Virus record (IMG/VR): IMGVR_UViG_3300028920_000050
Location: 37,395 to 101,394 of that record
Reading direction: 5' to 3' (one strand)
Source: a virus
DNA length: 64,000 nucleotides
Part shown: positions 6,734 to 60,740 of the stretch, one piece after another
How positions within the stretch are numbered: position 1 is the first letter of the stretch
Layout: every line of letters begins with the position of its first letter
The notes under the pieces: generated by a model
The model's database searches: none
Seen by the model: only the letters and a program-made list of their open reading frames with translations
What the model was told of the DNA's origin: nothing
Translations under genes and position numbers: made by a program

Positions 6734-6735
6734 AG

Positions 6736-7618: not shown

Positions 7619-7636
7619 GCACTCCTCCTTAAATTA

Positions 7637-7680
7637 AATGAAAGAGATAAATGTAAGAACTTACATTTATCTCTTTCATT
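7637..7680. repeat. Perfect 21-bp inverted repeat with embedded palindrome
   Basis: 44 bases form two identical 21-base arms separated only by AA. The centre is the palindrome variant TGTAAGAACTTACA (7652-7665). In RNA it would be a long A/U-rich stem between two genes of the RWER operon. It could act as a weak terminator, RNase III site or protein-binding site. Confidence 0.8.
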
Positions 7681-7703
7681 GTTCTGTCATTGTCGCAGTG
7701 ACG

Positions 7704-7892: not shown

Positions 7893-7920
7893 AGTTTTCC
7901 TCCTGTTTAATATATTAAAC

Positions 7921-8379: not shown

Positions 8380-8398
8380 AATGAAATCCAGATATTAA

Positions 8399-8833: not shown

Positions 8834-8855
8834 TTGTTATCTCCTGTTTTTTATA

Positions 8856-9764
8856 TTAACGCTCTCTTCGCTGATACTCATAATCACGAAGAGCACGTTC
8901 AGTGTAATACCGTCTTTCCATAAGTGTTTTACGTATCCTATAGTATGTAATGCCAGATAGAATACCTAAAGCAACTCCGTAAGTAGGTCTCTTTTGTATA
9001 AACTTAAGACCAGATAAAGCAGAGTTATTAAAATGATATGTAAATCGTTTTGCTCCCCGGAACTGAAATCCCATCTTATTACCTATGGGAACCTTCTTCG
9101 CCAAAGCCTGAGCCATAGTTTTAGTTCTGGTTATTTTCTGTGCTCTTTTTATCTGATTTAGATGTAATGACTGCAGTGGCTTGGCTACCCTGGCTGTCAT
9201 GTTAGATATTCCCTGATGAACTGTTTTCCAAGGTTTAGACTTACGTATTCTATCAAGCTCAAGAACTTTAACAAGATTATTACGGAAGCCACCAAATCCT
9301 GTACCTCTCCTTCCCTTCCGTCCAATACTTACAGCTGCACCATAGATACTACCAACTACCCACAGACTCCTCTCCCTCCTGGTTAAAGCCGCACGCTTGA
9401 ACATATAATCTTCACGTAATTCTGATTTTGTTTTTCCGTGGTATGTCTTTACAGCAGATACTCTCTTTAGTCCCTTAACTGCTTCTGGATTACCTGGAGT
9501 TTCTTTGAAGAAATCTGATTTTGGATTTTTATGAATAAAACCTGACCTGTCCTCTGCTACACTTACAAGATCCTGCTGTTCTTTTGGACGGACAATAGGA
9601 GGTGCATGATCCTCCATTACTGGAGGTTTATTATTTGGAAGCCTGTAGTCACGTTCCCACCTGTGGGATCTCCGCCTGAGTTTGTACCTTAGACCTTTTA
9701 TAAATCTTATTGTTCCCAGCCTGGGTTCTTCTTTCTTTTTTGTTCGCTTCCTACCATTTGACAT
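8856..9764 (-). CDS. Largest RWER-motif protein (302 aa)
   Basis: The module LGTIRFIKGLRYKLRR then SHRWERDY occupies residues 16-40. The protein is very basic throughout, with hydrophobic segments near 135-152 (LWVVGSIYGAAVSIG) and 268-285 (YGVALGILSGITYY). It ends QRRER. First gene after the operon promoter, with SD AAGGAG. Its size and design recall internal, ejected virion proteins, but no homology supports that. Confidence 0.75.
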   Translation of the reverse strand: MSNGRKRTKKKEEPRLGTIRFIKGLRYKLRRRSHRWERDYRLPNNKPPVMEDHAPPIVRPKEQQDLVSVAEDRSGFIHKNPKSDFFKETPGNPEAVKGLKRVSAVKTYHGKTKSELREDYMFKRAALTRRERSLWVVGSIYGAAVSIGRKGRRGTGFGGFRNNLVKVLELDRIRKSKPWKTVHQGISNMTARVAKPLQSLHLNQIKRAQKITRTKTMAQALAKKVPIGNKMGFQFRGAKRFTYHFNNSALSGLKFIQKRPTYGVALGILSGITYYRIRKTLMERRYYTERALRDYEYQRRER

Positions 9765-9859: not shown

Positions 9860-9888
9860 ATTATAATGTAAAATCTCAATTATTTCAA
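9860..9888 (-). promoter_or_regulatory. Sigma70-type promoter of the RWER operon
   Basis: Minus strand -35 TTGAAA (9888-9883, overlapping the last codons of the upstream gene), 17-base spacer, -10 TATAAT (9865-9860), start near 9853. Together with the terminator at 5793-5836 it defines a discrete unit covering 9764-5874. Confidence 0.7.
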
Positions 9889-10914
9889 ATTAAATCTCCT
9901 CTTTATAATCGAAGATCCCTCTTTTAGCGTATGAAATCCACCATATACGCTCTGGTAATTTACAATAAAATCAATATACCTGTGCCTAAGCTTCTCATCT
10001 ATGGGCCTGTTCAAGTAGTCATTTATGATAAATGATATATCATCTATGTACCCCACCTCTTTATAGTTAACAGACGGTATCCGATAACCAAGCCCAAGCG
10101 GAGTAACTACCGGCAAATTACTGAAGTACAGTACTTTCTTATTACTGAGTATGGCTTCAGCCAGGGAGGATGAATTGAAAGACACAACTATCTGTGCTTC
10201 TCGTATGTGTGTAAAATGATTTGCATTTTTATTAAACACAACTCGCTTGTCTTTAATAGGCACATAGTCATAAGTGAATCCACGCTTTTTATTATAGGCA
10301 CTTGGATGTGGTTTCACCACCAGAATAAAATCAGTATAAATATTTTTTATTATATTAAATACTGTGCGAACCATATCATTTGCTCTGTAAGGGTGTCCAC
10401 CAACAGATGTAATTGATTTATCTGTTGATTTCTGTAGTGGAAAATAAATAAGGGGTACTTTGTAGTTAGCCAAGGTCCCGTTCTTGTCATTATTATGTGC
10501 TACCCAATGCAGTTCAAACAAACTCACAAGCTTGTTTACTTTATACGGATAATTATTGAATGTCATATCCGTAGTATGACTGTTGAACATAGACATAGGA
10601 GCAAGCAGAGATCCACAATACTTATTATGATCCTGCCTGTCAATAAACTGATTGAACCTGAATGGTGACCTTTCAACAAATAGCATATTTCTGTAAGTAC
10701 TCTTTTTCATCAAGTCTACAAAAGATGATGGTATATTTCCTTTCTGATTGAAGAACTTTTTATAACACAAGTATCTATTCTTCTTCCCCTTATCCTTTAA
10801 ATAAATAGAATAGAAGTCATCAGTTGATACGTGTTCTATTTTTAAACCGAGTGGTTTAAGGTACGTATCAATTATATTGAACTCACAATTATAGATATTA
10901 GAATATACTTTCAT
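9880..10914 (-). CDS. Capsule-synthesis-like glycosyltransferase, copy 2 (344 aa)
   Basis: Has the C-terminal GT-B-like pattern seen in KpsC/KpsS-type and glycerophosphotransferase-like enzymes: a strand plus HP (VVKPHP, near residue 200), then SFNSSSLAEAILSNKKVLYF near 250 with a Ser/Glu-Ala donor-site motif. Homologous along its length to the gene just upstream, with the same 344-residue length, so the pair is a tandem duplication. The start overlaps the upstream stop by four bases. It probably transfers a sugar or sugar phosphate to a phage or host glycan; acceptor unknown. Confidence 0.65.
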   Translation of the reverse strand: MKVYSNIYNCEFNIIDTYLKPLGLKIEHVSTDDFYSIYLKDKGKKNRYLCYKKFFNQKGNIPSSFVDLMKKSTYRNMLFVERSPFRFNQFIDRQDHNKYCGSLLAPMSMFNSHTTDMTFNNYPYKVNKLVSLFELHWVAHNNDKNGTLANYKVPLIYFPLQKSTDKSITSVGGHPYRANDMVRTVFNIIKNIYTDFILVVKPHPSAYNKKRGFTYDYVPIKDKRVVFNKNANHFTHIREAQIVVSFNSSSLAEAILSNKKVLYFSNLPVVTPLGLGYRIPSVNYKEVGYIDDISFIINDYLNRPIDEKLRHRYIDFIVNYQSVYGGFHTLKEGSSIIKRRFNLK

Positions 10915-11945
10915 AAGCCTAACTTCTTAACAAGAAAAATCTTAAGATCTTTTCTTGCTGTAAAATTGTTAAAGAAAGACATCTCATTGATTATAAAATA
11001 AACATACTTGTTGTACGCTTCAGTATCTATATCTGTCATAAGATAGTCTCTTATAACCATAGCATTTTCATTTAGAAACCTCCCACCCGCATAATTCCAT
11101 GACGGTACTCGGTATCCTATATCATTACAGTCCACTACAGGCATGTTTGAGAAATATAATATCTTTTTATGAAGAAGTGCTGCTTCTGCTAAAGCAGATG
11201 AATTAAAACTCACAACTACTTTGGCTGCAGTGAGCAGTGCATAGTGTGATATGGAACTTGTAGTTATAACACGATTATCATCAAAATCAAATATATATTT
11301 ATAGTTTCCTCTATGGTACGGATGCTCACGCACTACAATAACAAAATCATTGTACATACGTGCAAACAATTTATAGATGACATTTATCATCTCATTAACA
11401 GGATAGGTCTCTGCTCCTCTGGATCTGAGTGATATATCCTGTGGTAATTGTAGCGGAAGGTAAACAAGGTTTCTTGTTTTTGGTATGTCTCCTGTGTCTT
11501 TATTTAAACCTAACCAGTGCTTCCTGAACCTTGACACAGTAGCATTCATGTCAGCTTTATATGTGAACTTATTGAACTTATGTAAATTACTATAATTCAC
11601 AAAAGAACTTATGTTGGCAAGCATTACTCCGCAGTTCCTGGAATTAATATTATCATCAGTTCCCTGTTTAAAACGAAATGGTGGTTTCTCAATAAAAAGT
11701 AAATGTCTAAAATCATCGAGCCTGAAAATCTCCCTGAAGTGATCGTAGGTCTTTACTTTAGTTCCATGCAGGAAGGTCTTACCCATTACATACATGTTTT
11801 CTTTGTCCTTGGCAGCTCTCCTATACAAATCCTCCCCCGCCGGCGGACGTTCAATGTCAACAGGCAACTTCAGTCTCTTAACATTACGTTCTAAGAGAGT
11901 GGCCTCCTCACTCTCTGAGTATATCATTATAAGCTTTTTCTTCAT
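10911..11945 (-). CDS. Capsule-synthesis-like glycosyltransferase, copy 1 (344 aa)
   Basis: Paralogue of the following gene. Shared landmarks are FIEKPPFRF near residue 85, VVREHPYH near 200 and SFNSSALAEAALLHKKILYF near 247. The motif order fits a GT-B fold with the active site in the C-terminal half. It overlaps the methyltransferase gene upstream by four bases, so it is coupled to it. Family-level function (glycan assembly) is reasonable, but the substrate is not known. Confidence 0.65.
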   Translation of the reverse strand: MKKKLIMIYSESEEATLLERNVKRLKLPVDIERPPAGEDLYRRAAKDKENMYVMGKTFLHGTKVKTYDHFREIFRLDDFRHLLFIEKPPFRFKQGTDDNINSRNCGVMLANISSFVNYSNLHKFNKFTYKADMNATVSRFRKHWLGLNKDTGDIPKTRNLVYLPLQLPQDISLRSRGAETYPVNEMINVIYKLFARMYNDFVIVVREHPYHRGNYKYIFDFDDNRVITTSSISHYALLTAAKVVVSFNSSALAEAALLHKKILYFSNMPVVDCNDIGYRVPSWNYAGGRFLNENAMVIRDYLMTDIDTEAYNKYVYFIINEMSFFNNFTARKDLKIFLVKKLGL

Positions 11946-12520
11946 TCAGCCACCTGACACACATACAACCTGTACGAATAATGTCTAGGATTAGGATGTC
12001 TCTGATTTATTTCGTATCTCTTTATGAGACCAATCCTGTTAACAAGCTCAAGCATGCTGTCAACAGTTATATTAAAATGTTTATGATAATGATTTCTCAT
12101 CTTAGTTTCATTGTCAGGATGTGAGAATATAACAAGACCACCTGGTTTAACACTGTTCTTAAATAAGAATAAAGTGCTCTCAAGTGATCTATCAAGATGT
12201 TCAATAGTTTCGAGAGAAACAACAGCATCGAAACCACCATTACCTATCCTTCCCTTTACCTTATTTAGATCTACAACATCATAAGCTATGGCTTTACTAT
12301 GATTGAAATGCTTAATAGCGTGACTTATTGCTTCCTTGGAGTTATCAATACCAACAACACTTCTGGCTGTCTCAGCAAGTATTGTGCTTCCGTATCCTAC
12401 TCCACATGCAGCATCAAGTACGTGCATGCCTCTACAAAATGAGCTGGCAATATAATACCTCTCCTTGTGTAGCTTCTCTATTTTTTCAAGTGCTGTTGCA
12501 TCCTGTCTTTCTCTGGCCAT
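11942..12520 (-). CDS. Class I SAM-dependent methyltransferase (192 aa)
   Basis: Motif I is VLDAACGVGYGSTILA (residues about 34-49), a clear glycine-rich SAM-binding loop. Acidic motif II is VVGID near 55, and post-I residues include DAVVSLETIEHL near 100, as in Ubie/COQ5-type enzymes. 192 residues is typical for the single domain. Within the sugar island it most likely O- or N-methylates a glycan or lipid-linked sugar, which is inferred from context. Confidence 0.85.
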   Translation of the reverse strand: MARERQDATALEKIEKLHKERYYIASSFCRGMHVLDAACGVGYGSTILAETARSVVGIDNSKEAISHAIKHFNHSKAIAYDVVDLNKVKGRIGNGGFDAVVSLETIEHLDRSLESTLFLFKNSVKPGGLVIFSHPDNETKMRNHYHKHFNITVDSMLELVNRIGLIKRYEINQRHPNPRHYSYRLYVCQVAE

Positions 12521-12521
12521 G

Positions 12522-13535
12522 TTACCTCACTCTCATATCTGCCTTGATCAGATCTCGACCATCATAAAACTTTGTACCAGTAAACGGCTTAAAAGTATAG
12601 TGACCCATGATCTTCATCTTTCCTTTATTCCTGTGTATAAAAGCACGTGTAAGTTTCCTGTCCTCTTCTGTCTCCCCCGGAAGTTTAAACATAAAAGAAG
12701 CGCCTACAGTTAGATTTATACTGTTACAAATATCGACTACTCTCTGATGATTTGCTACTGTAGTTCGTTTATTGAGAAGTTTAAGCATACGGTCACTACC
12801 ACTCTCCGCCCCGAACCTGACACTGCTAAACCCCATTTCCTTCATCATAATAGCAATTTCCTTATCGAAATTACTAGACCGAATAAATCCTCTGAGTGAA
12901 AAGCGTCTATTATAATCACGGAACATCCACATCTCGTGGATTTCCCGCAACCTCTTCTTATTAAATACGAATAAATCATCAAGTATGTATATTTCTTTTG
13001 CTTGAGGTTCTGTTCTTCTTATGAACTCTACCTCATCAATAAAGTAATCGGAGCTGTGAAACCTGACCTTTTTCCAAAAAACAGAACTGCTACAAAAATG
13101 ACAGTCATAGGGACACCCTCTCGCACTGATAATAGGAATAGACTTACCACACTTTCCTCTTATTGGGTATGGTAAATCATCTATGTTATCAATCTGTCCC
13201 GCCAAGGGATTAAATCTGCCATCAATTAAAGATTGAAACGGAAGTTCACCTTCTCCCTTTACAACATAATCAAAGCCTATATTATCGATCTTGGGCCACT
13301 GAGTTCCTTGACCACCTACACACACAGGTATATCTGTACTATTTAATATTTCATAAGCCTCCTTCATTCCGTGGTCATTGGTATACAGTCCTATCAAATC
13401 ACAGTTATTAAGTTTATTCCTATCCTGTACAATGGTTATCTTTGCTCCCTTACTGTAAGCAGCAAGGTAGCCTAAACCTAGAGGGTATTGAGATACTGGT
13501 CTCTCTCCCCCACACATGTACAGTTTTATTTTCAT
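12522..13535 (-). CDS. B12-binding-type radical SAM enzyme (337 aa)
   Basis: C141-x3-C145-x2-C148 in RGCPYDCHFCSS is the radical SAM iron-sulfur motif. The N-terminal 120 residues have the Rossmann-like pattern of B12-binding radical SAM proteins, but the cobalamin-ligating D-x-H-x-x-G motif is not intact (TNDHGM is the nearest). The C-terminal TIM-barrel strand FSSVRFGAESGSD is typical of BchE/YgiQ-like enzymes. It may methylate or rearrange a sugar or lipid. Adjacent to two methyltransferases and two glycosyltransferases. Unusual in phages. Confidence 0.85.
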   Translation of the reverse strand: MKIKLYMCGGERPVSQYPLGLGYLAAYSKGAKITIVQDRNKLNNCDLIGLYTNDHGMKEAYEILNSTDIPVCVGGQGTQWPKIDNIGFDYVVKGEGELPFQSLIDGRFNPLAGQIDNIDDLPYPIRGKCGKSIPIISARGCPYDCHFCSSSVFWKKVRFHSSDYFIDEVEFIRRTEPQAKEIYILDDLFVFNKKRLREIHEMWMFRDYNRRFSLRGFIRSSNFDKEIAIMMKEMGFSSVRFGAESGSDRMLKLLNKRTTVANHQRVVDICNSINLTVGASFMFKLPGETEEDRKLTRAFIHRNKGKMKIMGHYTFKPFTGTKFYDGRDLIKADMRVR

Positions 13536-14840: not shown

Positions 14841-14986
14841 CTTTTTTTCCTCTTGTTGGATTTTTTATGAGGACTTTTGTATCCACTCGCATGAGCTGCC
14901 CTCTGGATTTGAAGTGCTTTTGCTTTTGTTTTGAAAGGGCCACGTGACCCCCAATACCATCCGTTTGCTTTTTTAACTACCGGCAT
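14837..14986 (-). CDS. Small basic protein with NGWYWGSRGPF motif (49 aa)
   Basis: Start at 14986 in a TAATG overlap with the upstream gene, stop overlapping the SH3 start by ATGA, so it is clearly coupled. NGWYWGSRGPFKTKAKALQ near residues 8-26 is a Trp-rich head followed by a basic tail (KKSNKRKKR). Short proteins of this type recur in phages as hypotheticals; function unknown. Confidence 0.75.
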   Translation of the reverse strand: MPVVKKANGWYWGSRGPFKTKAKALQIQRAAHASGYKSPHKKSNKRKKR

Positions 14987-15174
14987 TATTTCATTCTCCC
15001 TATGGGTCCTCTCCCTTTTCCCACACCAAGTCCCATTCCTCTCCCCCTACTCCTTATTTTACCTCCGGGGCAACACTCCCATCTGTGATTTTTATTTAAA
15101 CGATATAACTTATTATTAATCCTTTTAGTAGTTCCTACTTTAAGTCTAATATCTTTGTGTTTATTTCTAAGCAT
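14986..15174 (-). CDS. Short RWER-motif protein downstream of the terminase (62 aa)
   Basis: Carries the module GTTKRINNKLYRLNKNHRWE (about residues 14-33) some five kilobases from the main cluster, followed only by a Gly/Arg-rich tail. SD AGGAG. Being almost the bare module, it may show the minimal functional unit. It sits directly after the terminase gene, which fits a role in packaging or the capsid but does not prove it. Confidence 0.75.
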   Translation of the reverse strand: MLRNKHKDIRLKVGTTKRINNKLYRLNKNHRWECCPGGKIRSRGRGMGLGVGKGRGPIGRMK

Positions 15175-25342: not shown

Positions 25343-26266
25343 CTAAATAAGTAGCTCCGGTAAAAAGCTATTCGCCCACTGCTCTCCTATTATCTTGTAG
25401 GTTTGAAGATATTTGTTTTTAACTTTATCGAGATCCATCAGTTTATTCGGTATTCTCCCGTCTACCCTGAAAACATTAAGACCAAGTTCCTCTGCATCAT
25501 TAACCTGTTCCCATATAGCCTGCTCACGTGCTATCGGTAAGAAGTTTTTTATCTGACGTATAAACCCTTGTCTCTCTTCTGTTCCAAGATTAGTATAGCC
25601 ACACCCACAGGAGAGTATAAAATAATTAGATCCTGCTTTAAGCCTTCTGGTTTCTATGTAAGCTTGCATAAGTGTACAACTTTGTGTACCACATCCGCCA
25701 TCTGTCCATATACCACCCTCTTTATCTCCGGACTTAAGAACATCTTTTTTGTCCTCAAAGTACCCAAAATAAGTCGGCGCTGAATATGTTGCCATAACAG
25801 GAAAGGCAGTAATAATATCTTTATACTTTTTCTTATAAGATTTAAAAAAATGAGTAAGCTTAGAGTCCTTCATATTAATTCCAGTAACAACAAGCTTTAT
25901 CTTTGCTTTATTCATAGGAAAATGAAGATACTTTAACATAAGAGCATCAGCGTACCCACGCTTGTACCTAGATCCTGTAAACCATGTTGCAGGATTAAAA
26001 AGCCCAAGAAATCTCTTCTTAAATATCTTTTTAAGTTCCTTAAGATACATATCTAAGATCTTTGATGCAGGCATACCCGAAGCAATAAGAGCAGCGGTTA
26101 TTCCTCCGGTAGATGTGCCTATAACCAGATCAAATATCTTGTGACATGGTTTACCCAGTGCTTTTTCAAGTCTTGAAAGAAAAGCAAGAAACATTACACC
26201 CTTCGCCCCGCCACCGTCAAGCTGAAGTACTTTTAACTTTTTATTATATTTAGATTTTAATTTCAT
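25343..26266 (-). CDS. Patatin-like phospholipase (307 aa)
   Basis: A lipid acyl hydrolase with all key elements: oxyanion-hole loop DGGGAKG (17-23), nucleophile Ser52 in GTSTG, and catalytic Asp189 in WTDGGCG. The family acts on phospholipids through a Ser-Asp dyad. Placed with the muramidase and a coiled-coil membrane protein, it may attack host membranes at lysis, though a role in lipid remodelling during infection is equally possible. Rare in phage lysis regions. A palindrome precedes its ribosome site. Confidence 0.85.
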   Translation of the reverse strand: MKLKSKYNKKLKVLQLDGGGAKGVMFLAFLSRLEKALGKPCHKIFDLVIGTSTGGITAALIASGMPASKILDMYLKELKKIFKKRFLGLFNPATWFTGSRYKRGYADALMLKYLHFPMNKAKIKLVVTGINMKDSKLTHFFKSYKKKYKDIITAFPVMATYSAPTYFGYFEDKKDVLKSGDKEGGIWTDGGCGTQSCTLMQAYIETRRLKAGSNYFILSCGCGYTNLGTEERQGFIRQIKNFLPIAREQAIWEQVNDAEELGLNVFRVDGRIPNKLMDLDKVKNKYLQTYKIIGEQWANSFLPELLI

Positions 26267-42751: not shown

Positions 42752-42771
42752 AAATGTAAGATCTTACATTT
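42752..42771. repeat. AAATGTAAGATCTTACATTT palindrome
   Basis: Perfect 20-base palindrome. The stop codon of the tape measure gene lies in its flank, and the next ribosome site follows at once. Confidence 0.85.
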
Positions 42772-45700
42772 ACTGGTAGCTATACGTAAAATCTTCATCG
42801 AGAACGTTAGCCAGCTTCTCCTGAAGTGTTCTCAGAAAATCCTCAGGTAAATCGCCTACTACATTACCATTAAAATTAACAGGCATATTTATATGGTAAG
42901 TATTGCCTCCACCTGCTCCACTACTTAATGGAGCAACCTTTGCTGGAGGAACTATTTTTTCATAAGGATGTGTTACATTAACGAGACCCGGACGTACAAC
43001 AATCCCGCCTTCCTGCATGTTGGGTATTCCTATATCTCCGTATGCAGACTGATACTCTTTCTTAGGAGAAAACTTTGTGGCAGCAGCTGACCCTACAGCA
43101 CCCGCGGCGAGTGCTCCCATTATAAGCTTAGGAGTAGCCATCCATGTTGCTCCCCCGGTATAAAATCCTCCTATTACTGTAACTAAAGCAGCTATGCCAA
43201 GACCTATAGCTACTATATACTTCTTGAACTTCTCAACAATGTTATCCCACTTAGAAGCTACATAACTTAACGCTGTAGAAATTATCATGATCTGTATACC
43301 GAACTTAGAAACAAAAGCCCATACCCTACCCAAGGCTCCTGTTGCAGCTCCTATCTTACCTGTCATAGCACCGGCTGTAGCTGCTGTGCCGGCAACTCCA
43401 GCACCTACCTTCACACCTTTAGCTACACCAGATGTAGCTTTTGCCATAGTAGCTGCAGTAGCTGTACCACCTACTCCACCTAATCCAGTGGCAACCGCCC
43501 CTTTACCAAAAGCTCTGACTATCGCATTATGTACAATAAGTGCTCCTGCTTTAAGTGCCTGAAGTATTGAGGTAGCCATTGGAGGAAGCCTCCCCATAAG
43601 AGATGATTTAAACACTCCTGCATAATGCATGATCTTCTTCCATAAACCAGCCCTTACTTGTTCTGTTTGTAATTGCTGTCTGCTTGCAGAAAGTTGAGAT
43701 TTCTGACCAAACAGTATAACCTTCATAACTTTAACAACTCCCCACAAAGGTCTACCGAAGCTTTTAAAGTAACCAAGCAAAATCCATCCCATTCTGCCCA
43801 TAGTCGCCATAAGATTTACGATCATAGCTATAGCAGGTACAGCAGCTAGTATTCCTACAAGCATACCTGTTCCTCTGGCTCCCAAGGCCCCCGCTATATA
43901 TCCGAATACTTTTCCTATACCACGCATGATATCCATGAAACCCTGAAAACCTGGACTGTTAAAAAAATCTTCTACAGTCTTTTGCCATCTCTTAAGGGCT
44001 TCTGCTGAATTATCTATTATCCGATCTGTACCTGTCAAACCCTTGTACACTTCTTTAAACCCTTCAGCAAATGCCTTAAAACCTTTTTTAAGAAAATCTG
44101 TAAAAGCGGACCACGTAATAGTAATCCTCTTAAGAACACCACTAAGTAGTGTACCGAATGATGGGAATATTTTACTAAGAGCAGTAAGGCTTACAAATAA
44201 AACACCAAATGTCCCAACAAACCGGATCATAAGAGGAAGTAGACTTTTTATAGAGTTCTCAAACTTACCTGTTCCAAAAAGAGTAGATACCCATCCAAGT
44301 CCTGTCCTACCCATACCAGCGATCCCGCCTACAATACCTCCCCTGCCTACTAGGGCACCAAGCATGCCTATTCCCTTACCTGCTCCAGTGGCTACACCTA
44401 TTGCCCCAATCCTCCCCATCATACCAGCAAACTTTACCTGAAGCATACTGACCAATGGTCCAATCGCAGCTACTGCCCCACCAAAGGCGGTTACAGCAAG
44501 AGTTGCTGCCACAAAATACTTAACGAGTGGCAACTGTAACATTCTTATTACTACGTTAACACCCTTCGTCATACCTTTATACATAGCCTGTTGAAAAGGT
44601 TGAAAGGTACGGCCAAGTAGTGTCCATGCAGTATCCATAGATCCTTGTAACTGCTTCTTCCACCCGGATACTGTGTTAATCATATCATCACGAAATGATT
44701 CGGCTGCTCCTTTTGACTCATTCTTTAATTCGCTGTACCACTCTCTTACTCTTCCAAGCCCCACCTTAATTACATTCATAAAAGGAGCAAGGTAATACTC
44801 AGATGGAAATATTTCACGTAACTGCTTCTGTATCTCCTTGGCCTGTCCACGTGTAGCAATATTAGCAGCTGTAAGGCCAAGCTTACCGGCAATCGCTCCG
44901 ATCATATCCATAAGCTGTCTGTTCTTTCCTTCTGATGTAAGGAAGGACTGTCCAGTGATCCTCTCGTATGCTTTCTTATTCATGGATAATGCCCGGATCA
45001 TCATATCAATACCGAACCCTGCCATTACAGGGTTCATCGGATTTGTTTGCTTTAAAGCTCCCATTACAGCAAGAGTAGCTTCAAGATCCTGGTTGTACGC
45101 TGAAATGGCACGAGATGCACCTTGGAAAGCAGGACCGAACTCCTGCATAACAAAAGGAGAGATCCTCTGCATAGTAGTTAGAACATCGGCCTGTCTACGT
45201 GAGGACTCGGCGAGTTCCCAACGGGTTTTTCCGTTGACCTCATTAAACATGTTTAAAGTCTGAATTAATAAATTACTTCCCTCTGCAAGACCCATGTTGC
45301 CGGCGAGTGCCGCATCCATCATAGCGGGAGTTGCTGCCAGTGTTTTATTTACATCTCCGAGAGAAGAGGCCAGATAGTATACCGCCTGTGCGGACTCGGC
45401 CATTGAGAAAGGTGTATCTATACCTAATTGAATTATGGTCTGATCGACCATACGTGCCTGGGCAGCTGTTGACCCAAGCACAAAGTTTACTTCTTTAAGT
45501 TTTACCTGATACTGTTCCGCAGCACGTGTTGCCCTGTGGATCATGGCAATAGCGCCTGCTCCAAAGATCCCGCCCCATACGGTAGCTGCTGAGAAAGAAA
45601 CAAAGGTCTGCCACAGTTTATTGGCTGTAACGTTAGCTACACCCATAGCAGTGCTTGCTCCGGTAGCTGCTTTTGCCATTCCGACAAAACGCTGACCTAT

Positions 45701-45994
45701 AGTTCGGATAACAGCCCCTGCCCTTGTCTGTGATATAAATCTTTTATAAACGAGTGTGAGGCCACCAATAGCTGTAGCACCTATGGCTACATTTTTAGCT
45801 ATGGCTTTAAAATGATTAGTTTGTGCTTTTGAGGAGTCCTTTAACCTGCGTTCTACATGTTTCGTAGTATCATCAGTAGCTTTCTGCCACTTTCCGAGAG
45901 AACCAGTCATGTGATTGACAGTTCTCTCGAAACTTTTATCCTCAGCAGAGAACTCTGTATGTACTCGATGCTTTTCGTAGCTAGTGTCTGCCAA
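42770..45994 (-). CDS. Tail tape measure protein (1074 aa)
   Basis: Sets tail length. TTG start with TAGGAGATAACC upstream. TP901-type core: LGSTAAQARMVDQTIIQLGI, then SMAESAQAVYYLASSLGDVN (about 165-215). Several hydrophobic segments (470-500, 690-730, 880-940) would form membrane channels on ejection. 1074 residues would predict a tail of roughly 160 nm by the usual 1.5 angstrom per residue rule. Preceded by the frameshifted chaperone-position gene. Confidence 0.9.
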   Translation of the reverse strand: MADTSYEKHRVHTEFSAEDKSFERTVNHMTGSLGKWQKATDDTTKHVERRLKDSSKAQTNHFKAIAKNVAIGATAIGGLTLVYKRFISQTRAGAVIRTIGQRFVGMAKAATGASTAMGVANVTANKLWQTFVSFSAATVWGGIFGAGAIAMIHRATRAAEQYQVKLKEVNFVLGSTAAQARMVDQTIIQLGIDTPFSMAESAQAVYYLASSLGDVNKTLAATPAMMDAALAGNMGLAEGSNLLIQTLNMFNEVNGKTRWELAESSRRQADVLTTMQRISPFVMQEFGPAFQGASRAISAYNQDLEATLAVMGALKQTNPMNPVMAGFGIDMMIRALSMNKKAYERITGQSFLTSEGKNRQLMDMIGAIAGKLGLTAANIATRGQAKEIQKQLREIFPSEYYLAPFMNVIKVGLGRVREWYSELKNESKGAAESFRDDMINTVSGWKKQLQGSMDTAWTLLGRTFQPFQQAMYKGMTKGVNVVIRMLQLPLVKYFVAATLAVTAFGGAVAAIGPLVSMLQVKFAGMMGRIGAIGVATGAGKGIGMLGALVGRGGIVGGIAGMGRTGLGWVSTLFGTGKFENSIKSLLPLMIRFVGTFGVLFVSLTALSKIFPSFGTLLSGVLKRITITWSAFTDFLKKGFKAFAEGFKEVYKGLTGTDRIIDNSAEALKRWQKTVEDFFNSPGFQGFMDIMRGIGKVFGYIAGALGARGTGMLVGILAAVPAIAMIVNLMATMGRMGWILLGYFKSFGRPLWGVVKVMKVILFGQKSQLSASRQQLQTEQVRAGLWKKIMHYAGVFKSSLMGRLPPMATSILQALKAGALIVHNAIVRAFGKGAVATGLGGVGGTATAATMAKATSGVAKGVKVGAGVAGTAATAGAMTGKIGAATGALGRVWAFVSKFGIQIMIISTALSYVASKWDNIVEKFKKYIVAIGLGIAALVTVIGGFYTGGATWMATPKLIMGALAAGAVGSAAATKFSPKKEYQSAYGDIGIPNMQEGGIVVRPGLVNVTHPYEKIVPPAKVAPLSSGAGGGNTYHINMPVNFNGNVVGDLPEDFLRTLQEKLANVLDEDFTYSYQ

Positions 45995-46003: not shown

Positions 46004-46252
46004 CTAAAACACTTTTGACTTTGGATTAAAACGTCTATTCCGTGGTGGAGACTTCGGCTCTTTACTGGCCTTCTCCACCTCTTCACGTTCTGCATCCAAC
46101 TGTTTATTAAGAGATGTTACCCTTCTGTTCCTCTCTTTAATTGTCCAACTATCAACATCTAGGGCACTAGTTTTATAATGATACATCAAGAAGTGATAAT
46201 GACTATCCCTGATCTCATTATACTCCTTTAAGTACGATGTATCATTTATTAA
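46004..46252 (-). CDS. Frameshift extension ORF of the zinc-knuckle protein
   Basis: Open without stops from the slippery run to a TAG at 46004, about 82 codons, in the -1 frame relative to the gene ending at 46249. The part from the TTG at 46189 lacks a good ribosome site, so it is probably made as a fusion after -1 slippage. The tail is charged and helical (RRVTSLNKQLDAEREEVEKA). Its stop lies within the ribosome-binding region of the tape measure gene. Confidence 0.65.
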   Translation of the reverse strand, partial: LINDTSYLKEYNEIRDSHYHFLMYHYKTSALDVDSWTIKERNRRVTSLNKQLDAEREEVEKASKEPKSPPRNRRFNPKSKVF

Positions 46253-47001
46253 AAAAAAAGTGCTATCGGGACCTCTCGTTCCTCAGCATGACCACAGTTA
46301 TCACATGTATCCGTTACACGTAACTGCGGACCTACTCCTTCAGACAGCTTATTGATTTCTTCAATAAGCCGTGTAACAGTAGCAGACTTTACGTTGTCAA
46401 AGAATTGCAAGGGATTTACCCTTGTTAGACTGTCCTTCTTGTTAGACTTTACTCCGAGTAAACAGTGCTTGATCATGGCCATTTTTATAGCAACAGGATC
46501 TTGGTTATTCAATGCATCAAAGAAAGAGACCTGACAATCACCATTTGGCATTGTGATACGAGCAAACTTAAACTCTGCATCCTCCTGCTTATATGGTGAC
46601 AGCAACTCTACATCCCTCTCTGGCTCCTCACAGTCATTAACCGGCATGCTCATAAGATTTACCGTCTTATTACTTTTGTGCTGACATGTAGGGCACTCGT
46701 GTATATACTTGAAAGTTTCGTCATCGAGTAACCTGAGATGAAGCATTATGAGATTTCTATCACATACCTTGAGCTTCCCTGCCTGCTGCCTCCGCATTTC
46801 ACTGTACGGACCGAACTTTAAAGTTATGGCAGTGATCAGTTCAGTAACACCCCTCGCAGGGTTATTAAGGTATTCCTTCTTAACAACCCTGCGTTCATGC
46901 TTACCAGTATACTCATCAATTTTTATTTCCTTAATAGTCTCATCCACTGAGGACTTCCATCCAACCAGCAGATCAAACTCGGAAACCGCTTTTACTTCCA
47001 T
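46249..47001 (-). CDS. Zinc-knuckle tail assembly protein, gp26-like (250 aa)
   Basis: Resembles the T4 gp26-type baseplate/assembly family. It has a CxxC pair in IHECPTCQHKSNKTVNLM (C103, C106) and a second in TDTCDNCGHAEERE (C233, C236), likely sharing zinc. It lies between tube and tape measure, the place of tail assembly chaperones, and its last sense codons are CTT TTT TTT before TAA, which allows -1 slippage into the 46004-46252 ORF. Position plus slippery site support a chaperone-like role. Confidence 0.7.
   Translation of the reverse strand: MEVKAVSEFDLLVGWKSSVDETIKEIKIDEYTGKHERRVVKKEYLNNPARGVTELITAITLKFGPYSEMRRQQAGKLKVCDRNLIMLHLRLLDDETFKYIHECPTCQHKSNKTVNLMSMPVNDCEEPERDVELLSPYKQEDAEFKFARITMPNGDCQVSFFDALNNQDPVAIKMAMIKHCLLGVKSNKKDSLTRVNPLQFFDNVKSATVTRLIEEINKLSEGVGPQLRVTDTCDNCGHAEEREVPIALFF
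46251..46260 (-). promoter_or_regulatory. Programmed -1 frameshift site (C-T9-A)
   Basis: Minus strand CTTTTTTTTTAA: nine Ts end the zero-frame gene. A -1 slip avoids the TAA at 46251-46249 and enters an open frame of about 82 codons with no stop up to the tape measure. No strong stimulatory hairpin is evident downstream. Confidence 0.7.
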
Positions 47002-47079: not shown

Positions 47080-47745
47080 TTAAACACCAGTGGGTGTGAA
47101 CGTAGATATGAGATTTGCTCCTACCTGTGACTTCCAGTTCTTTTCCATAAGCACGTCATCTACAACGCAGCCTTCATGCTCAAGGGTAATGGTAGCCAGG
47201 GAAATCCCATCAGACTCACGATCAAGCTCTCCCATATCATACTCAGAGGGCCAGCTGTTAACGACCTTCCATGCTCTTTCAATGTCACCTTCGATAAACT
47301 TGGCGCCTGATGAATCTGAGGACGTTTCATCATAGTAATATGACAACTGGTATATGTTCATCTGTAAAACCTTAAAGCTAGGTACACCTGCACCTAGTCT
47401 GAGGTTAAACACCCGCTTACACCATTCCCATACACCGTCCTCCGCGAACACGGCCCTTGTAAAAACAATAGGCTCATATTCAGGACGGGTAGGAATGACA
47501 CGTGGGGTCATACCACCACCATCATAGTACTTAAACGTACCGGTTTTCCATTTGAGGCCCGATATCTTAGTCACACCCATAAAAGGCACCTCTGTAGTAC
47601 CTGCCTGTAATGTGACCAGGAAACGGAAGGGACGTAGGGGATCTTTTGCTGCGGAGCCGTCTAAGTAAAACTCAACATCATTCGTTCCGAGCTTGGAGTC
47701 CTTAAACAGCGTATAGTTTACTTCATAGGGATTGTCTGTTGACAT
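47080..47745 (-). CDS. Tail tube protein, gp19-like (221 aa)
   Basis: Follows the sheath gene, as usual. PFRFLVTLQAGTTEVPFMGV near residue 40 and VTKISGLKWKTG then YYDGGGMTPRVIP match the T4 gp19/tube family, whose copies stack to form the inner tube. The length is slightly above the family mean. Confidence 0.85.
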   Translation of the reverse strand: MSTDNPYEVNYTLFKDSKLGTNDVEFYLDGSAAKDPLRPFRFLVTLQAGTTEVPFMGVTKISGLKWKTGTFKYYDGGGMTPRVIPTRPEYEPIVFTRAVFAEDGVWEWCKRVFNLRLGAGVPSFKVLQMNIYQLSYYYDETSSDSSGAKFIEGDIERAWKVVNSWPSEYDMGELDRESDGISLATITLEHEGCVVDDVLMEKNWKSQVGANLISTFTPTGV

Positions 47746-47758: not shown

Positions 47759-49417
47759 TTAACTTACGAGTTCCGCACTTCCGGAAAAGAAGCCGATCTT
47801 AAAAATAAAGAACTCGACCATCCTTGCCAGTCGCACACCAACCTCAGCATAGGCCATATCTTTTGCAAGAATGGCTTCTGTGTTGAGAGTGGGGTCATCA
47901 ACCCTCAAGTGAATACTTTCAGCAAACACTGGAGAGTAAAACATCCCTGCTGTATTCTTGAGTATCTTGTCAAGCCTCTGATATATAAGCTTCTCAGCAG
48001 CAGGGAGGAACCCTTTGTCCAAGGGACGGAAAACAAAACCCCGTCCGAGTTTCAACATATCACGCTGTATCCACGTTAAGGCCCTCCTGTTAGGAAAGAA
48101 CTTATAATCGTTATCACGTGACAATGTACGCTCACCCCAGGACATAACAATAAGTGTGTCGTCATTCGAGTAAAACTTTCGTACCTCGGATATCCGACCA
48201 GCAAGAAGGTCTTTACCCTCTTCCTCACTTATGTCATGTGACAGACCAAAGGCTCCCTTATCTGTATAAGAACCGTAAGGACTGTTTGAGATCGCAAGAT
48301 TACGTCCGCTTGAAATCCCGCCCTCTTTGAGAAGGGCGATATCCTGGGCGCAGTAACCTCCAATTTCAAAACCACATGCAGGGACTTTAATGAAGTCACC
48401 TGTAGCCTTGACCTGATCATACATTTCGATCCACGGATAAGCAATCTTCATAAACGAATTAATATAATCGTTTATATTGATCTTTTCAGTATCAATAGGA
48501 TACTCAGCGGGGTCTTCACCATAGTCCTTTTTGGACAGTACAATTCCCTTTGAAGAAGCGGAGTTAGGAAGGGTATCACTTGGAAGGGTAGATACAAAAG
48601 GTATATTGTATGCAGCACCGAACTTAACAAGGGCTTCGATATATGAGTCAGTAAAGATTTCAACATTTGCTATAAAATCAATCTTGCTGTAGATCGGAAG
48701 AATTGCGTACATACCTGTCTTGGATGACTTAACACCTATGTAGTCAGCTTCAAGGGCTTCAATACCGTCACTCCCTCCCGCAAGCGTAAATGCCGGACTG
48801 TTATTTCCAGCAGACACACCTTTAGGAAGATTTGAACTCCCGGTACTGTCAACCACATAGATATAGTCAGATCCGAGATCATTTATAACTTCGCCGTTTG
48901 AGTTGTACTTGTTAAGCTCCTTCTCCCAAAAAAGCACATTGTCCGGGTCTTTTGAAAGCGGACCATATGTGATTATGGTGTTGGAGTTTCTGCGTAAGCG
49001 AAGATAGAATAGATCTGACTCGCCAGGAACGGGGGCACATACAACACTGAACTGATTACCTGCAGCGCAGGCATAGTTAAAGTATATGTCACCGATCTTA
49101 GTGTCGCCGTCATCAACGACAGGTATAGTAGCCTGTGTAGGCTGTGCAACTGTAGTAGACGCTTTTAAGCTCTGTACATAACAGACACTTCCACCCGCCC
49201 TGAAGAACGAATAAACAACGTAAGGGAGGTACGCACCGCTTATAAAGCTACCGAACTTGATTTTGTAATCAGTCCAAGAAGTAACTTTAATAGGTACACC
49301 AATGTACCCCCACTCTGTTTTACCTGTAAAAAACGGAGTGGTAGCGGCAACTGATGGAATTGCCCGAGCACCGAACTTGGTCTCCTGATAATAAGCATCA
49401 GCTCTGCCTAGTTTCAT
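47759..49417 (-). CDS. Contractile tail sheath protein (552 aa)
   Basis: N-terminal AIPSVAATTPFFTGKTEWG then YVVYSFFRAGGSVCYVQSL, and C-terminal FPNRRALTWIQRDMLKLGR, MAYAEVGVRLARMVEFFIFK are typical of the phage tail sheath family. Contracts on adsorption to drive the tube. Full length. SD precedes the ATG, and the neck gene upstream ends three bases earlier. Confidence 0.92.
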   Translation of the reverse strand: MKLGRADAYYQETKFGARAIPSVAATTPFFTGKTEWGYIGVPIKVTSWTDYKIKFGSFISGAYLPYVVYSFFRAGGSVCYVQSLKASTTVAQPTQATIPVVDDGDTKIGDIYFNYACAAGNQFSVVCAPVPGESDLFYLRLRRNSNTIITYGPLSKDPDNVLFWEKELNKYNSNGEVINDLGSDYIYVVDSTGSSNLPKGVSAGNNSPAFTLAGGSDGIEALEADYIGVKSSKTGMYAILPIYSKIDFIANVEIFTDSYIEALVKFGAAYNIPFVSTLPSDTLPNSASSKGIVLSKKDYGEDPAEYPIDTEKININDYINSFMKIAYPWIEMYDQVKATGDFIKVPACGFEIGGYCAQDIALLKEGGISSGRNLAISNSPYGSYTDKGAFGLSHDISEEEGKDLLAGRISEVRKFYSNDDTLIVMSWGERTLSRDNDYKFFPNRRALTWIQRDMLKLGRGFVFRPLDKGFLPAAEKLIYQRLDKILKNTAGMFYSPVFAESIHLRVDDPTLNTEAILAKDMAYAEVGVRLARMVEFFIFKIGFFSGSAELVS

Positions 49418-51434: not shown

Positions 51435-52546
51435 TTTGTTATGACAAGCTCCTTACTTTTAATAACAGTATTCTGCATGTTAAGTGCAACAATTTTAAAA
51501 TATTTACTTTGTCCTTCACTTAACCCTGCATAAAAATCAGCCATAACATACTCAGGATACTGACTGTCTGTTATAGTTGTTTCAAGCGTAACACTCTCAG
51601 GCATATCCGCAATCTTCATTGGAACATGAAAGCTTTCAGTATGCGAGTACACTCTGTACTCTTTAAAATCAGCACCCCTTAACTGTGTCCAGTTAAGAAT
51701 AAGATCATTTCTAAGTTTAGTAAACTTAATTTCAATTCGCTGACTAGCCTCAATATTCCTTAATGGTATTTCATTTCCTGTTATACTATCTACAACAGTT
51801 TTGTGTCCTATAACCACTTCAGGCATAGAACCTGTTCCGTCATCAATGAACTTCTTGGCAAGATCCTGGTACTGCTTGGCCATGTCATGCCAATGCTTAG
51901 CAATACTCTGCACATCCTGACTGAGGCTTGTATCGGATGTAATTGATATCTTTCCAAGATTTACTGTTTCTTTTTCAATGACCGTAAGCTTTGACACAGA
52001 CTCAAGTAAAGCTGCTCCCCGTTTGTTACATAGGCCCATAGCCGCAAGCCACTTGACATAAACAAGTTCACTGGGGTCAAGATCTTCTACGTCATATCCT
52101 TCTTTAACCAGGGAAACCGCATCCTCTATAGCGGTATCATATACATAGTTAGGATAGAAACTGCTTACATACAGGTCTACCCCCGGTGTTCTGGTTTCAG
52201 GATTGTCGTCATTGAATATAATAGATGTTTTTGGCTGATAAAAAAGACCTGTTATGTTATAGGATATAACAATGTTAGGATCAAGGTCCACCTTCATGCC
52301 TGGGATAGCTGTGTAGTGTTTTATAAGATCAAGTAAAGTAACCACATCCGTACTCGTAAACAATACTTCATGAGTTGTCTCGTTAGTGTCACCTTCCCCA
52401 AGAATAACCTTTATACGATCAGCTGTTATTTCTACAGAAGCTTTATCTTTTTCACCTTCATACTGAAAGCGGGCAAACTTTCTCCGCTCAAACTCGTCAG
52501 CAATAGTGACCCGAAGATCGTTACGCAGTTTTTCCAAGTTTGTCAT
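51431..52546 (-). CDS. Head/neck protein with Fn3-like C-terminus (371 aa)
   Basis: Helical N-terminal 250 residues followed by a fibronectin-III-like beta domain (LILNWTQLRGADFKEYRVYS, then YFKIVALNMQNTVIKSKEL). Such Ig-like domains are common in phage virion proteins and often bind surfaces weakly. The gene overlaps the glycosyltransferase stop by 26 bases and the next start by four. Confidence 0.65.
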   Translation of the reverse strand: MTNLEKLRNDLRVTIADEFERRKFARFQYEGEKDKASVEITADRIKVILGEGDTNETTHEVLFTSTDVVTLLDLIKHYTAIPGMKVDLDPNIVISYNITGLFYQPKTSIIFNDDNPETRTPGVDLYVSSFYPNYVYDTAIEDAVSLVKEGYDVEDLDPSELVYVKWLAAMGLCNKRGAALLESVSKLTVIEKETVNLGKISITSDTSLSQDVQSIAKHWHDMAKQYQDLAKKFIDDGTGSMPEVVIGHKTVVDSITGNEIPLRNIEASQRIEIKFTKLRNDLILNWTQLRGADFKEYRVYSHTESFHVPMKIADMPESVTLETTITDSQYPEYVMADFYAGLSEGQSKYFKIVALNMQNTVIKSKELVITK

Positions 52547-53714
52547 TATTTAAGACCTCATTTATTTTTTTAATTATCCTTTTAGGATTTAACTTAAGCA
52601 TGCACTCACCCTGAAGCTTTCCGTTTATAAGACATTTATTATGCCAGCTTCGTATGTTACTCCAACAGGGACGATCCTTGCACTTAATGCCGGCATTTAC
52701 TACATTAAGATTTTTATGTCCCCATATCTTATAGGGAGTCGGACCGTAGATACACACATTCCGTACATTATAGAGTGAAGCAATATGGGTAAGGAACCCG
52801 TCTACTCCTATATACAGATCACAGTTCTTTATGTAGCCTACTGCCTGTTGAAGTGCTGTAGTTCCGACAAGTGATTTAACTCCAGGTATTATATTGGTAA
52901 ACTTGTCACCAACTTGATACACCTTATAGTTTATGTTTTCAAGGTACTCTACTACCTCTTTGAATAAGTTTACAGGATAACTCTTTACTTGTGTGCCTCC
53001 CGCCCCGTCACATACAATGACTGCATGTTTTTCTTGTGTTATTGGATAATCACAAGAAGTAGGTATGTCGAACCACATATCTTCTTCACGCACTTCAATA
53101 CCTATACTTTTTTTGTATACATCTGTCCACCACAAACCTGACTTCTTGATCCATTCATAACTCGACATTTTCTTATTATAAAAATGTAGCCTTCTGAACT
53201 TATCAGATTTTTTTAATTCTGGATATTTTTCTGGAAGTTTAGGATTGAAATACCACACTTCTGCATCCGGTTTAGTTGCAAAGAACATATCGAAATCATA
53301 TATATTCCTTTTAAAAAATATATCCTCACCGGAATAGCAATTATGCAGTCTTGCTTGATTAATATGTGGAAATCTTCGCAGCATCTGAATGAACTGCGGT
53401 GTCGTGTACCATGTTATAAAGGCATCAGGATACTTTCTCCTGATGCCTGTAGCTATAGCTGTACCAAGTAAAACATCACCATACCCTCCGTTACGCATAA
53501 TACCTATACGTAAGTGAGGTGATGTGGGCTGGTCCCCAGCCGTACTGCTTATGCGCTTATTATCATCAACAGCACAAAACTGATCGCTATTACATAAATG
53601 ATTATATAGGTGTGCTTCTAAATTACCAGTAGGCCCACGTCTAAAGGTATAACGGTTCTTACCTAATATAAAACTAACATCCTTTAGACAGAACAGCTCT
53701 TTAGACTTTTCCAC
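52521..53714 (-). CDS. GT9-family glycosyltransferase (heptosyltransferase-like), about 397 aa
   Basis: GIMRNGGYGDVLLGTAIATG near residue 77 is the N-terminal GT9 signature, and the C-terminal half has VIVCDGAGG, then YIKNCDLYIGVDGFLTHIAS with the family Asp-Gly, and VCIYGPTPYKIWG. I favour a GTG start near 53714, since further upstream codons overlap another gene. About 65 residues precede the GT9 domain (DVSFILGKNRYTFRRGPTG), perhaps a virion or oligomer module. A sugar-transfer enzyme set among capsid and neck genes is unusual. Confidence 0.8.
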   Translation of the reverse strand: MEKSKELFCLKDVSFILGKNRYTFRRGPTGNLEAHLYNHLCNSDQFCAVDDNKRISSTAGDQPTSPHLRIGIMRNGGYGDVLLGTAIATGIRRKYPDAFITWYTTPQFIQMLRRFPHINQARLHNCYSGEDIFFKRNIYDFDMFFATKPDAEVWYFNPKLPEKYPELKKSDKFRRLHFYNKKMSSYEWIKKSGLWWTDVYKKSIGIEVREEDMWFDIPTSCDYPITQEKHAVIVCDGAGGTQVKSYPVNLFKEVVEYLENINYKVYQVGDKFTNIIPGVKSLVGTTALQQAVGYIKNCDLYIGVDGFLTHIASLYNVRNVCIYGPTPYKIWGHKNLNVVNAGIKCKDRPCWSNIRSWHNKCLINGKLQGECMLKLNPKRIIKKINEVLNNDKLGKTA

Positions 53715-54309
53715 CCTTTTCAAGGACAAATAAGATTTTGTTCGGTACTCGTAACCTGGCTCCCTTCCTGTAGGGACCGTACCATGTTCCATTACCCCGC
53801 TGTGCGGAACCATAAAAGAAACGTGGAACATCTTCAACAAGACGAACAGTAACCATTTCGTTTGGATCATTGACCCTCCTCCCTGCTCCAAGGTCACCTA
53901 AGACCTGGATGCTTGTATCGGTTTTGGTGGGTTCTTCTTTACTGGCATCGTCTGCTTGCTTTTTAAGTGCTGCCTTTCCTTCATCTGTCATAGACACCTT
54001 ACCTTCAGGGTAAGTAGCATTAGACTCAGGTTTTGTTTCTTTAAGTTCTTTTTCTGTAGGTTCTCCGTCAACCGCATCTACATCTTCAATAAGATCTTCA
54101 CCTGTAGGCTCATCAGCCGCAGTTAACGGCCTACTCTTTTCAATACGCTTATTTACTTTTTTAGCGGACTTCTTCCCCATACCCCTTGCCTTCTTTATGG
54201 CTGCGATTGCTCTTTTGAGGTCACTATCTGCCCAATCCTCGCGGATCGGTTCATCATTAGTTATTTTATTCCATTCTGCAACAAGGTTTGCATTAAGTTT
54301 ATCAGACAT
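53701..54309 (-). CDS. Head-completion or decoration protein (202 aa)
   Basis: Low-complexity acidic/Lys middle and a compact C-terminal domain (RLVEDVPRFFYGSAQRGNG, then PYRKGARLRVPNKILFVL) with an SH3-like look. First gene after the capsid terminator. Role on the capsid inferred from position. Its stop overlaps the glycosyltransferase start region. Confidence 0.65.
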   Translation of the reverse strand: MSDKLNANLVAEWNKITNDEPIREDWADSDLKRAIAAIKKARGMGKKSAKKVNKRIEKSRPLTAADEPTGEDLIEDVDAVDGEPTEKELKETKPESNATYPEGKVSMTDEGKAALKKQADDASKEEPTKTDTSIQVLGDLGAGRRVNDPNEMVTVRLVEDVPRFFYGSAQRGNGTWYGPYRKGARLRVPNKILFVLEKGGKV

Positions 54310-58868: not shown

Positions 58869-60740
58869 TTATTCTTCGTTAGCACCTAGTTTGGCATCTG
58901 CCTGTTTATCTACACCACCATCTTGTGATTGATTTGTAACCTGTGTAGCAGGAGTAGAACCTCCTCCACTAGAACCAGGAGGTACATTGTCAAACCCACC
59001 ATCCATAGGAGGCTCAAGTATAGCGTTCTTCTTAGAGTCATGCATAGCTTTACGAAGTTCATCACGTTCTATTTGAGCAAGATATCCATCAGGATCTGAT
59101 ACCTCAAGTTTCTTAAGAGCGTCACGATCAGTTATAAGAGACAAGTCTTTACGATCACGTATATTACCTATCTCTGTGTACTCATCTTTCGGAAGAGAAT
59201 AAGCAATACCAATATCCATGTCCTCAACCCAACGAGCATAGATACCTTCCTTCATAAACTTAAAGTAATCGAACACACCTGTTTCATTCTTTGTCTGAAC
59301 AATGTCCACCTTAAGTACAAGTGCAGCCATAAGCTTTGAGAACTTATCTACAGGAAATGCTTCAGGATCTTTTCGTGCCTTATCAAGGGCTTCCTTTAAA
59401 TCTTTAACTCCCAGGTCAGCTCCTATGTTATCTATGGTCTTGTCAACATGAATAAAAAGACCATTATACAGAAAGCCATAGCATATAATTATACGATTAA
59501 GTTTTTTAAATCCTTCTATATAATTATCCTTGCACATATCTGTGGCCCGAATAAGAGAATAATATTCTGTGTGAAGGGCGGAACCTGATGTATTTGAAAT
59601 GGCACTTTCAGTCCCACCAAGGGATCTTGCATGCACACCAGTAGCTTCATGCAGTGCCTGTTTTATTAATTCAAGAAACTTTGTAGCTGCCGGCAGATCA
59701 GTATCGAGAGTAACATGCTTCAGATCTGCACCTTTAGGAATAGCATAAGTTTTGTCTGGACCCACCACCATTGACTTAAGAGAAGCTCCTGTCAAAACTG
59801 TCATTGGTGAAGCGAAGTACCTTACAATACCACGTATATCGCGAACAATATCGTTGTAAATAAAATTAAGATTATATGATTTCTGAACGTCAGACTCTCC
59901 GAAGTCGCTGTTCTTTACCTCAGAGTTGACAATATGAGCAATAGGTATATAACCAAGATAGTTCGGAGCGGGGTATCCCATTACAAGTTTATCATCCTTG
60001 TAAACAGCTACTGTGGTTTTTGTCCACACTTCCCGCAACGTGAACGAATTACCATCATCAGTAACACCGTCCATGAATACTTCACACTTAACCATCTCCT
60101 TCCTTGGAGTGTAAGCATAGGTTGGGAATACACGCTTCTCATCAAGAACGAGTATCTCCATTTTAAGATTGGCAGGATCGAAACTATCAGTTAAAACATA
60201 AGCCCCTTCATCAACAACCTTGTCCTGGCTCTCATCGAGAACAAGATGAAGCTTCTCTATCTCTGATGTTTCCTGTGAGATAGCCGCTGTATCATCAGCA
60301 ACTCCTTCACTTTCAAACTTATTATCCTTGGTAACTTCTCTGCCTACAGTATCCACATAAGGGATCACTTTTATAAAGGCATCACCAGCTACCTTACCTG
60401 TACGGACGATCTCCTTAGCCTTCTTGTCACGGCCATTGAGTTCCCATACTTTGTTTACAAAATCTTGGAGGGTTTGGTTGTAAGGAATATAGGGCTTGAT
60501 GCCCTTGCCAACCATGAAGTGAACCAGAGCGTCAATGAACACTCTGTTATAATTGATGTCAGCCGTTATAAGTCTGCCGTCATTTTTGTCCTGCAAATTA
60601 TCGGCCTTCGTTCTATAGGCTATCCAGAACTTACGGTAGTTATTAACTCGCTCAGTGTGCTGCTTCTCAACATCAAGGTCTGTAACCTTAAACTGTAGAG
60701 CATACCTTTTATAGAACTCATTAGCTGTGTTAACTGCCAT
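58869..60740 (-). CDS. Portal protein (623 aa)
   Basis: SPP1-type portal: RLITADINYNRVFIDALVHF then MVGKGIKPYIPYNQTLQDFV near residue 65-95, and clip/stem helices around 300-350 (KSYNLNFIYNDIVRDIRGIV). Twelve copies form the DNA channel. The C-terminal 60 residues are Gly/Pro/Gln-rich and disordered. It abuts the head morphogenesis gene with a 3-base gap. Confidence 0.88.
   Translation of the reverse strand: MAVNTANEFYKRYALQFKVTDLDVEKQHTERVNNYRKFWIAYRTKADNLQDKNDGRLITADINYNRVFIDALVHFMVGKGIKPYIPYNQTLQDFVNKVWELNGRDKKAKEIVRTGKVAGDAFIKVIPYVDTVGREVTKDNKFESEGVADDTAAISQETSEIEKLHLVLDESQDKVVDEGAYVLTDSFDPANLKMEILVLDEKRVFPTYAYTPRKEMVKCEVFMDGVTDDGNSFTLREVWTKTTVAVYKDDKLVMGYPAPNYLGYIPIAHIVNSEVKNSDFGESDVQKSYNLNFIYNDIVRDIRGIVRYFASPMTVLTGASLKSMVVGPDKTYAIPKGADLKHVTLDTDLPAATKFLELIKQALHEATGVHARSLGGTESAISNTSGSALHTEYYSLIRATDMCKDNYIEGFKKLNRIIICYGFLYNGLFIHVDKTIDNIGADLGVKDLKEALDKARKDPEAFPVDKFSKLMAALVLKVDIVQTKNETGVFDYFKFMKEGIYARWVEDMDIGIAYSLPKDEYTEIGNIRDRKDLSLITDRDALKKLEVSDPDGYLAQIERDELRKAMHDSKKNAILEPPMDGGFDNVPPGSSGGGSTPATQVTNQSQDGGVDKQADAKLGANEE

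Follow-up and report, generated by a model that had tools for sequence, protein, structure and literature searches.

In phages lambda and HK97, the genes between the tail tube and the tape measure (G/GT and gp13/gp14, respectively) yield a short product and a frameshift-extended one, with the slippery site placed immediately ahead of the zero-frame stop. The G/GT arrangement is described as conserved "except T4" in the available part of an NAR review (PMC5009743). T4 gp26 and gp51 are covered in the accessible sections of a T4 review (PMC3004832), and a table lists gp51 of phage DLP6 next to gp26, frameshifting being unmentioned in those portions of the two papers that were available (PMC9024508, PMC5349666). 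A full-text search found no published report of a frameshift at the end of gp26, with the caveats that most subscription papers and preprints were outside its scope and that sources were available only in part, so absence from print is unproven. The idea of gp26 as a chaperone is not new, since in the GenBank record of Acinetobacter phage Stupor a gp26 already carries the label "tape measure protein assembly chaperone".

The locus described here is found in the window, the whole 64-kb stretch of DNA that was analysed, and its features all lie on the minus strand. A gp26-type gene (46249-47001; 250 amino acids, two CxxC pairs), here proposed to encode a G-like tail assembly chaperone, is located between the tail tube gene (47080-47745; PF06841, T4 gp19) and the tape measure gene (42770-45994; PF10145, PHROG 1533). 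The tail sheath gene is found at 47759-49417 (PHROG 23). The gp26-type protein matches PF12322 with 29.0 bits against a Pfam gathering cut-off of 24.5 (E=1e-6), and it also matches PHROG 150 ("baseplate hub"). In BFVD, its predicted structure (pLDDT 67) finds gp26-type proteins (best E 7e-11). These matches support the earlier note, which had called the zero-frame partner gp26-type. The 101-kb viral record that contains the window has a single PF12322 copy. Compared with lambda G and the HK97 chaperone, gp26 is larger, carries two CxxC pairs and has no sequence match to solved structures; its family, PF12322, is classed among baseplate proteins.

The gene ends with GTC CCG ATA GCA CTT TTT TTT TAA. 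The heptamer U UUU UUU (46252-46258) meets the X XXY YYZ pattern in the zero frame and is part of a run of nine T (46251-46259), also a possible site of transcription slippage and the only T run of eight or more on the coding strand of the window. No stop interrupts the -1 frame at the junction, and it extends over 82 codons plus a stop (46004-46252; referred to as T). The stop at 46004 is 9 nt ahead of the TTG start of the tape measure gene (45994), and a fusion product would be 332 amino acids long. Both this gene end and an open -1 frame of about 82 codons reaching up to the tape measure gene had been claimed from the letters alone, and both were confirmed. The -1 reading frame overlaps the gp26-type gene in a shifted frame, and its first NTG appears only after 21 residues. 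A Shine-Dalgarno-like GAGAGG (46272-46277) is present 13 nt upstream of the heptamer.

A programmed frameshift that makes a gp26-T fusion is very probably the best account of this locus, with the caveat that there are no product data. Most ribosomes would stop at TAA and release the gp26-type protein, which would take the G role of tail assembly chaperone in a contractile-tailed phage. A minority would shift into the -1 frame on U UUU UUU, read the 82-codon T and produce gp26-T in the GT role. The shift itself, in this phage, and its rate are inferred. If the lambda system is a guide, the role of the gp26 portion would be to coat the tape measure protein and that of T to bring in tube subunits, and gp26 and gp26-T would both leave before the tail is completed. 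A G-like gp26 with a GT-like gp26-T is the best reading; these chaperone roles, binding to the tape measure and tube, and absence from the virion are all inferences.

The layout recurs in distant relatives. It was examined in 14 named T4-superfamily phages, comprising phages of Rhizobium, Sinorhizobium, Caulobacter, Pelagibacter, Vibrio, Stenotrophomonas and Pseudomonas, cyanophages, Aeromonas PX29 and Ackermannviridae SP1. All 14 have a T domain of ~55-65 residues after gp26 in the -1 frame, and 11 have U UUU UUN, both of its codons being among the final four sense codons of gp26. Cygsa01, K393 and SP1 have T in the -1 frame without the heptamer at the end of gp26, and they are unexplained exceptions. 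In SP1, T is unannotated and no ATG, GTG or TTG precedes its core. A scan of viral_contigs with three gp26 proteins detected at least 80 loci; in the best 80, T is always in the -1 frame and the heptamer is always present, reading NNT TTT TTC in 79. A gut clade consisting of BS162P1, MT835482 and four contigs possesses both features in 6/6 loci (a seventh locus, in which the end of the gene is missing, was left out). In total, the heptamer is present in 97 of the 100 -1-type loci examined. These findings back the proposal in the earlier note of a -1 frameshift at the tail-chaperone position. Its remark that the combination had not been seen described stands insofar as no literature report was found, but the combination is not a one-off: it is widespread in T4-superfamily phages. 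Heptamer conservation applies to distant relatives only, and no relative was found in the window's own close lineage. The closest analogue of the window's slip site is found in Pelagibacter phage HTVC008M (AGT TTT TTT TAA).

In several phages the small domain is already annotated, as "gp51" or "baseplate hub assembly catalyst". The pairs of gp26 and a small gene under either name in cyanophages, HTVC008M, Caulobacter Cr30 and Sinorhizobium phiM19 resemble the window in having a -1-frame T directly behind gp26 and U UUU UUN. Unlike the proposed fusion, these pairs are annotated as two genes, and the feature tables examined contain no frameshift annotation. If the frameshift reading is true, it would correct the annotation of the small gene in many genomes of cyanophages and other phages.

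Codon choice at the slip site was analysed in 48 representatives with less than 80% identity, drawn from the best 80 contigs. All 48 have T as the last base of the codon that precedes the Phe pair, though the residue varies (Ser, Asp, Ala, Gly, Asn); elsewhere in those genes, codons end in T in 63% of cases for Ser, 28% for Ala and 40% for Gly. The first Phe is TTT in all 48 (72% elsewhere in the same genes) and the second is TTC in 47 (28% elsewhere). The genes contain 48 further Phe pairs, and none of these has the form NNT TTT TTC. No p-value is given for these counts because the sequences are related. The heptamer is held at synonymous positions in this contig set, which represents a large marine clade. 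In the gut phage L110, the TTT of the slip site is the sole TTT among 12 Phe codons.

An upstream stimulator is less uniform. The bacterial dnaX gene has a Shine-Dalgarno-like stretch upstream of its slip site. In the 48 contig representatives such a stretch peaks 7-10 nt upstream of the slip site, with a mean of -8.25 kcal/mol against a null of -5.48, and it is stronger than the synonymous-codon null in 41. A Shine-Dalgarno stimulator was not supported at the codon level in the window (GAGAGG is not stronger than its null, p 0.47), in the 11 phages (p<=0.05 in 1/11) or in the gut clade. Structures 3' of the site were computed without shuffles.

These observations bear on whether the ribosome or RNA polymerase slips on U9, which remains an inference. 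Transcription slippage on long A or U runs is established, and the window has a run of nine U, the only one of eight or more on its strand. Polymerase slippage on this run would leave a fraction of mRNAs one base longer or two shorter; it rivals the frameshift step and not the product. It is nevertheless unlikely: in most relatives the run is limited to six U with a C behind it (TTTTTTC), a site better suited to tandem slippage of the ribosome, and a Shine-Dalgarno-like stretch beats its null in 41 of the 48 contig representatives.

The main rival for T is its synthesis as a separate small protein through reinitiation. The earlier note had described an internal TTG as lacking a ribosome site, but it had missed the ATG (46186) that neighbours this TTG (46189). 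An AAAGGAG site precedes a mini-ORF of 10 codons (46218-46186; site and mini-ORF together 46186-46229), and the mini-ORF stop overlaps the in-frame ATG as TGATG, so a reinitiation route exists. An ATG for T is also present where gp26 stops in K393, Cygsa01, D483, Moby and RL38J1, and in some relatives it is annotated as a gene of its own. Among the contigs (79 of the 80, one incomplete contig being left out), an ATG is found closely downstream of the slip site in 71, and T could therefore also be made separately in most of them. In a few this is not possible via the usual starts: the T core is preceded by TTG only in 5/79 and by no ATG, GTG or TTG in 3/79. Reinitiation leaves such start-less T domains unexplained, as it does the T9 run and the conservation of the heptamer. 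In the window, its product would also start too late to include the initial 22 residues of T, a segment that aligns with the domain conserved in the relatives. A point against the frameshift reading is that the codons for these residues, ahead of the internal ATG, score only -0.15 bits/codon; this value lies between coding and non-coding ones, and 0.03 marks the 5% point of true coding stretches. Reinitiation as the source of T was judged very unlikely.

That the gene is really one continuous frame, broken by a homopolymer error in sequencing or assembly, is more improbable still. The window derives from a single metagenomic record and a nine-base run is prone to such errors, but the same -1 layout is present with the shorter TTTTTTC in 79 of the best 80 contigs, and it is present in isolate genomes.

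Homology of the window's T to that of its relatives is likely, not proven. Six T profiles, built from 48 of the 80 contigs where contigs were used, were tried against 953 window segments. The -1 segment ranked first with three of them (E 0.51, 0.51, 0.033); it did not appear in the results of the remaining three, hence the reservation. The best case was the fullest profile, built without the window, with E=0.033 for the -1 segment and 0.92 for the next segment; the alignment places HYKTSALDVDSWTIKER opposite FHKYSLTEIENMVSWER. Such a match is weak and leaves the homology unproven from sequence alone. PHROG and NCBIfam searches detected no convincing family for the segment. DUF6760 (PF20546) was rejected as the T family, as only 2/29 T domains match it (best E 0.18) and none in the window's record; it is retained merely as a lead. 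The weakness of this homology is the one point in favour of a chance open frame with T noncoding, an extremely improbable explanation in view of the position of T, its first rank among the 953 segments with the fullest profile, its codon usage (0.08 bits/codon, with scores of -0.91 and -1.66 for the remaining frames) and the rarity of equal openness in order-1 Markov sequences with the window's base steps (0.08% of 5000 trials).

T4 resembles the window in that its gp26 belongs to PF12322 and that T is homologous to the C-terminus of its gp51; unlike the window, it has two PF12322 genes, and its gp26 ends without the heptamer. Both T4 gp26 and gp51 match PF12322 (E 9e-64 and 4e-52). A T profile built from -1-frame domains, with gp51 excluded, finds the gp51 C-termini in 7/7 two-gene phages (E 2e-12 to 0.0015), and the last ~50 amino acids of T4 gp51 match it with E=4e-7. 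Judged by these profile matches, gp51 is a gp26 with T fused in frame. Among 21 records (RCIP0002 and PhT2 were omitted from this count), two PF12322 genes are present in 5, all five with gp51, and one in 16. None of the seven two-gene loci has the heptamer at the end of gp26 (0/7) or a T behind gp26. The T4 gene ends in GAG TTC TTT GAG, with the two Phe kept as TTC TTT. Aeromonas PX29, filed under Straboviridae, has one gene and retained the heptamer.

In the tree, the two-copy gp26 and gp51 are placed on one side and the single-copy genes on the other (100/99), with the caveats that the tree contains long branches that meet and that its root is not known. Together with the T at the C-terminus of gp51, the tree is consistent with one duplication in which gp51 would have taken the fused form. 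Frameshifting at the end of gp26 is probably ancestral to the whole T4 superfamily, and T4 would then be no exception to G/GT: in the T-even lineage the gene would have been duplicated, gp26 (= G) being the copy that lost its T and its slip site and gp51 (= GT) the copy with T fused in frame. Both proteins would be chaperones of the gp29 tape measure and not parts of the hub. T4 may have been listed as an exception because this duplication replaced the frameshift. The comparison offers a specific, testable answer to the T4 exception, namely gp26/gp51 as G/GT with duplication in place of frameshifting, and if true it is a clear example of gene duplication taking the place of recoding.

Predicted folds give limited further support to the chaperone reading. 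The AlphaFold2 model of the gp26 protein of contig L029 (pLDDT 84.8, pTM 0.79) has the HK97 tail assembly chaperone 2OB9 as its best PDB match (Foldseek probability 0.87, E 0.53; Z 7.6), followed by 3FGX (Z 7.2) and YqbN 3KLU (Z 6.9). Like 2OB9, 3FGX and 3KLU are proteins of the chaperone type. The top three matches all fall on residues 1-95; further rows are 5IR0 (Z 4.8) and unrelated proteins (3.8). A Z below 8 is no proof of a fold and can result from a common arrangement. For the window model, a Foldseek search of the PDB returned nothing at E <0.001, and the two best rows (3FGX, Z 5.8; 2OB9, Z 5.4) are weak and fall on residues 116-230. Different halves of the L029 and window models thus resemble the same chaperone structures. 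It may be guessed from these models that gp26 holds two chaperone-like repeats. A sequence search of the PDB gave no match for the gp26 profile and nothing above chance level for the T profile.

Exact-peptide scans of viral_contigs with the window's gp26, tube, sheath and portal proteins found no kin. TBLASTN with the window gp26 detected Streptomyces phages BRock, LuckySocke and Alone3, and the portal protein led to the BRock group, Bacteroides phage BS162P1 and fecal phage MT835482. By gp26 and portal, the BRock group is thus the nearest kin of the window, and its use of the +1 frame counts against the -1 reading. The portal gene (58869-60740) had been considered as a terminase, which was rejected as its product matches portal proteins. 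In five Streptomyces records (BRock, LuckySocke, Alone3, GiJojo, pSt2308) a T-like domain overlaps the end of gp26 and mostly lacks an early start codon, as in the window; unlike in the window, T is in the +1 frame, and the heptamer is absent (0/5). The junction reads GAA CTC TGA or GAA CTC TAA, which resembles +1 sites such as that of prfB, and a +1 frameshift likely joins gp26 to T in this group. Conserved sequence is found upstream of the annotated T starts. The records are annotated with two genes, or with T missing (pSt2308).

Several other genes of the window were noted. Small basic proteins encoded at 5874-9764 and 14986-15174 (minus strand) have a common motif, G-x-TK...G..Y.L.....RWER; the one that was searched had no Pfam match. 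Genes for sugar or surface chemistry are located at 9880-13535 and 52521-53897 (minus strand). Two of the products are Capsule_synth proteins, and another is a radical SAM protein that also has a weak B12-binding match; a glycosyltransferase of family 9 is encoded beside the tail genes. A gene for a patatin-like phospholipase (PF01734, E=1.5e-19) is found at 25343-26266 on the minus strand, within the block of tail and structural genes.
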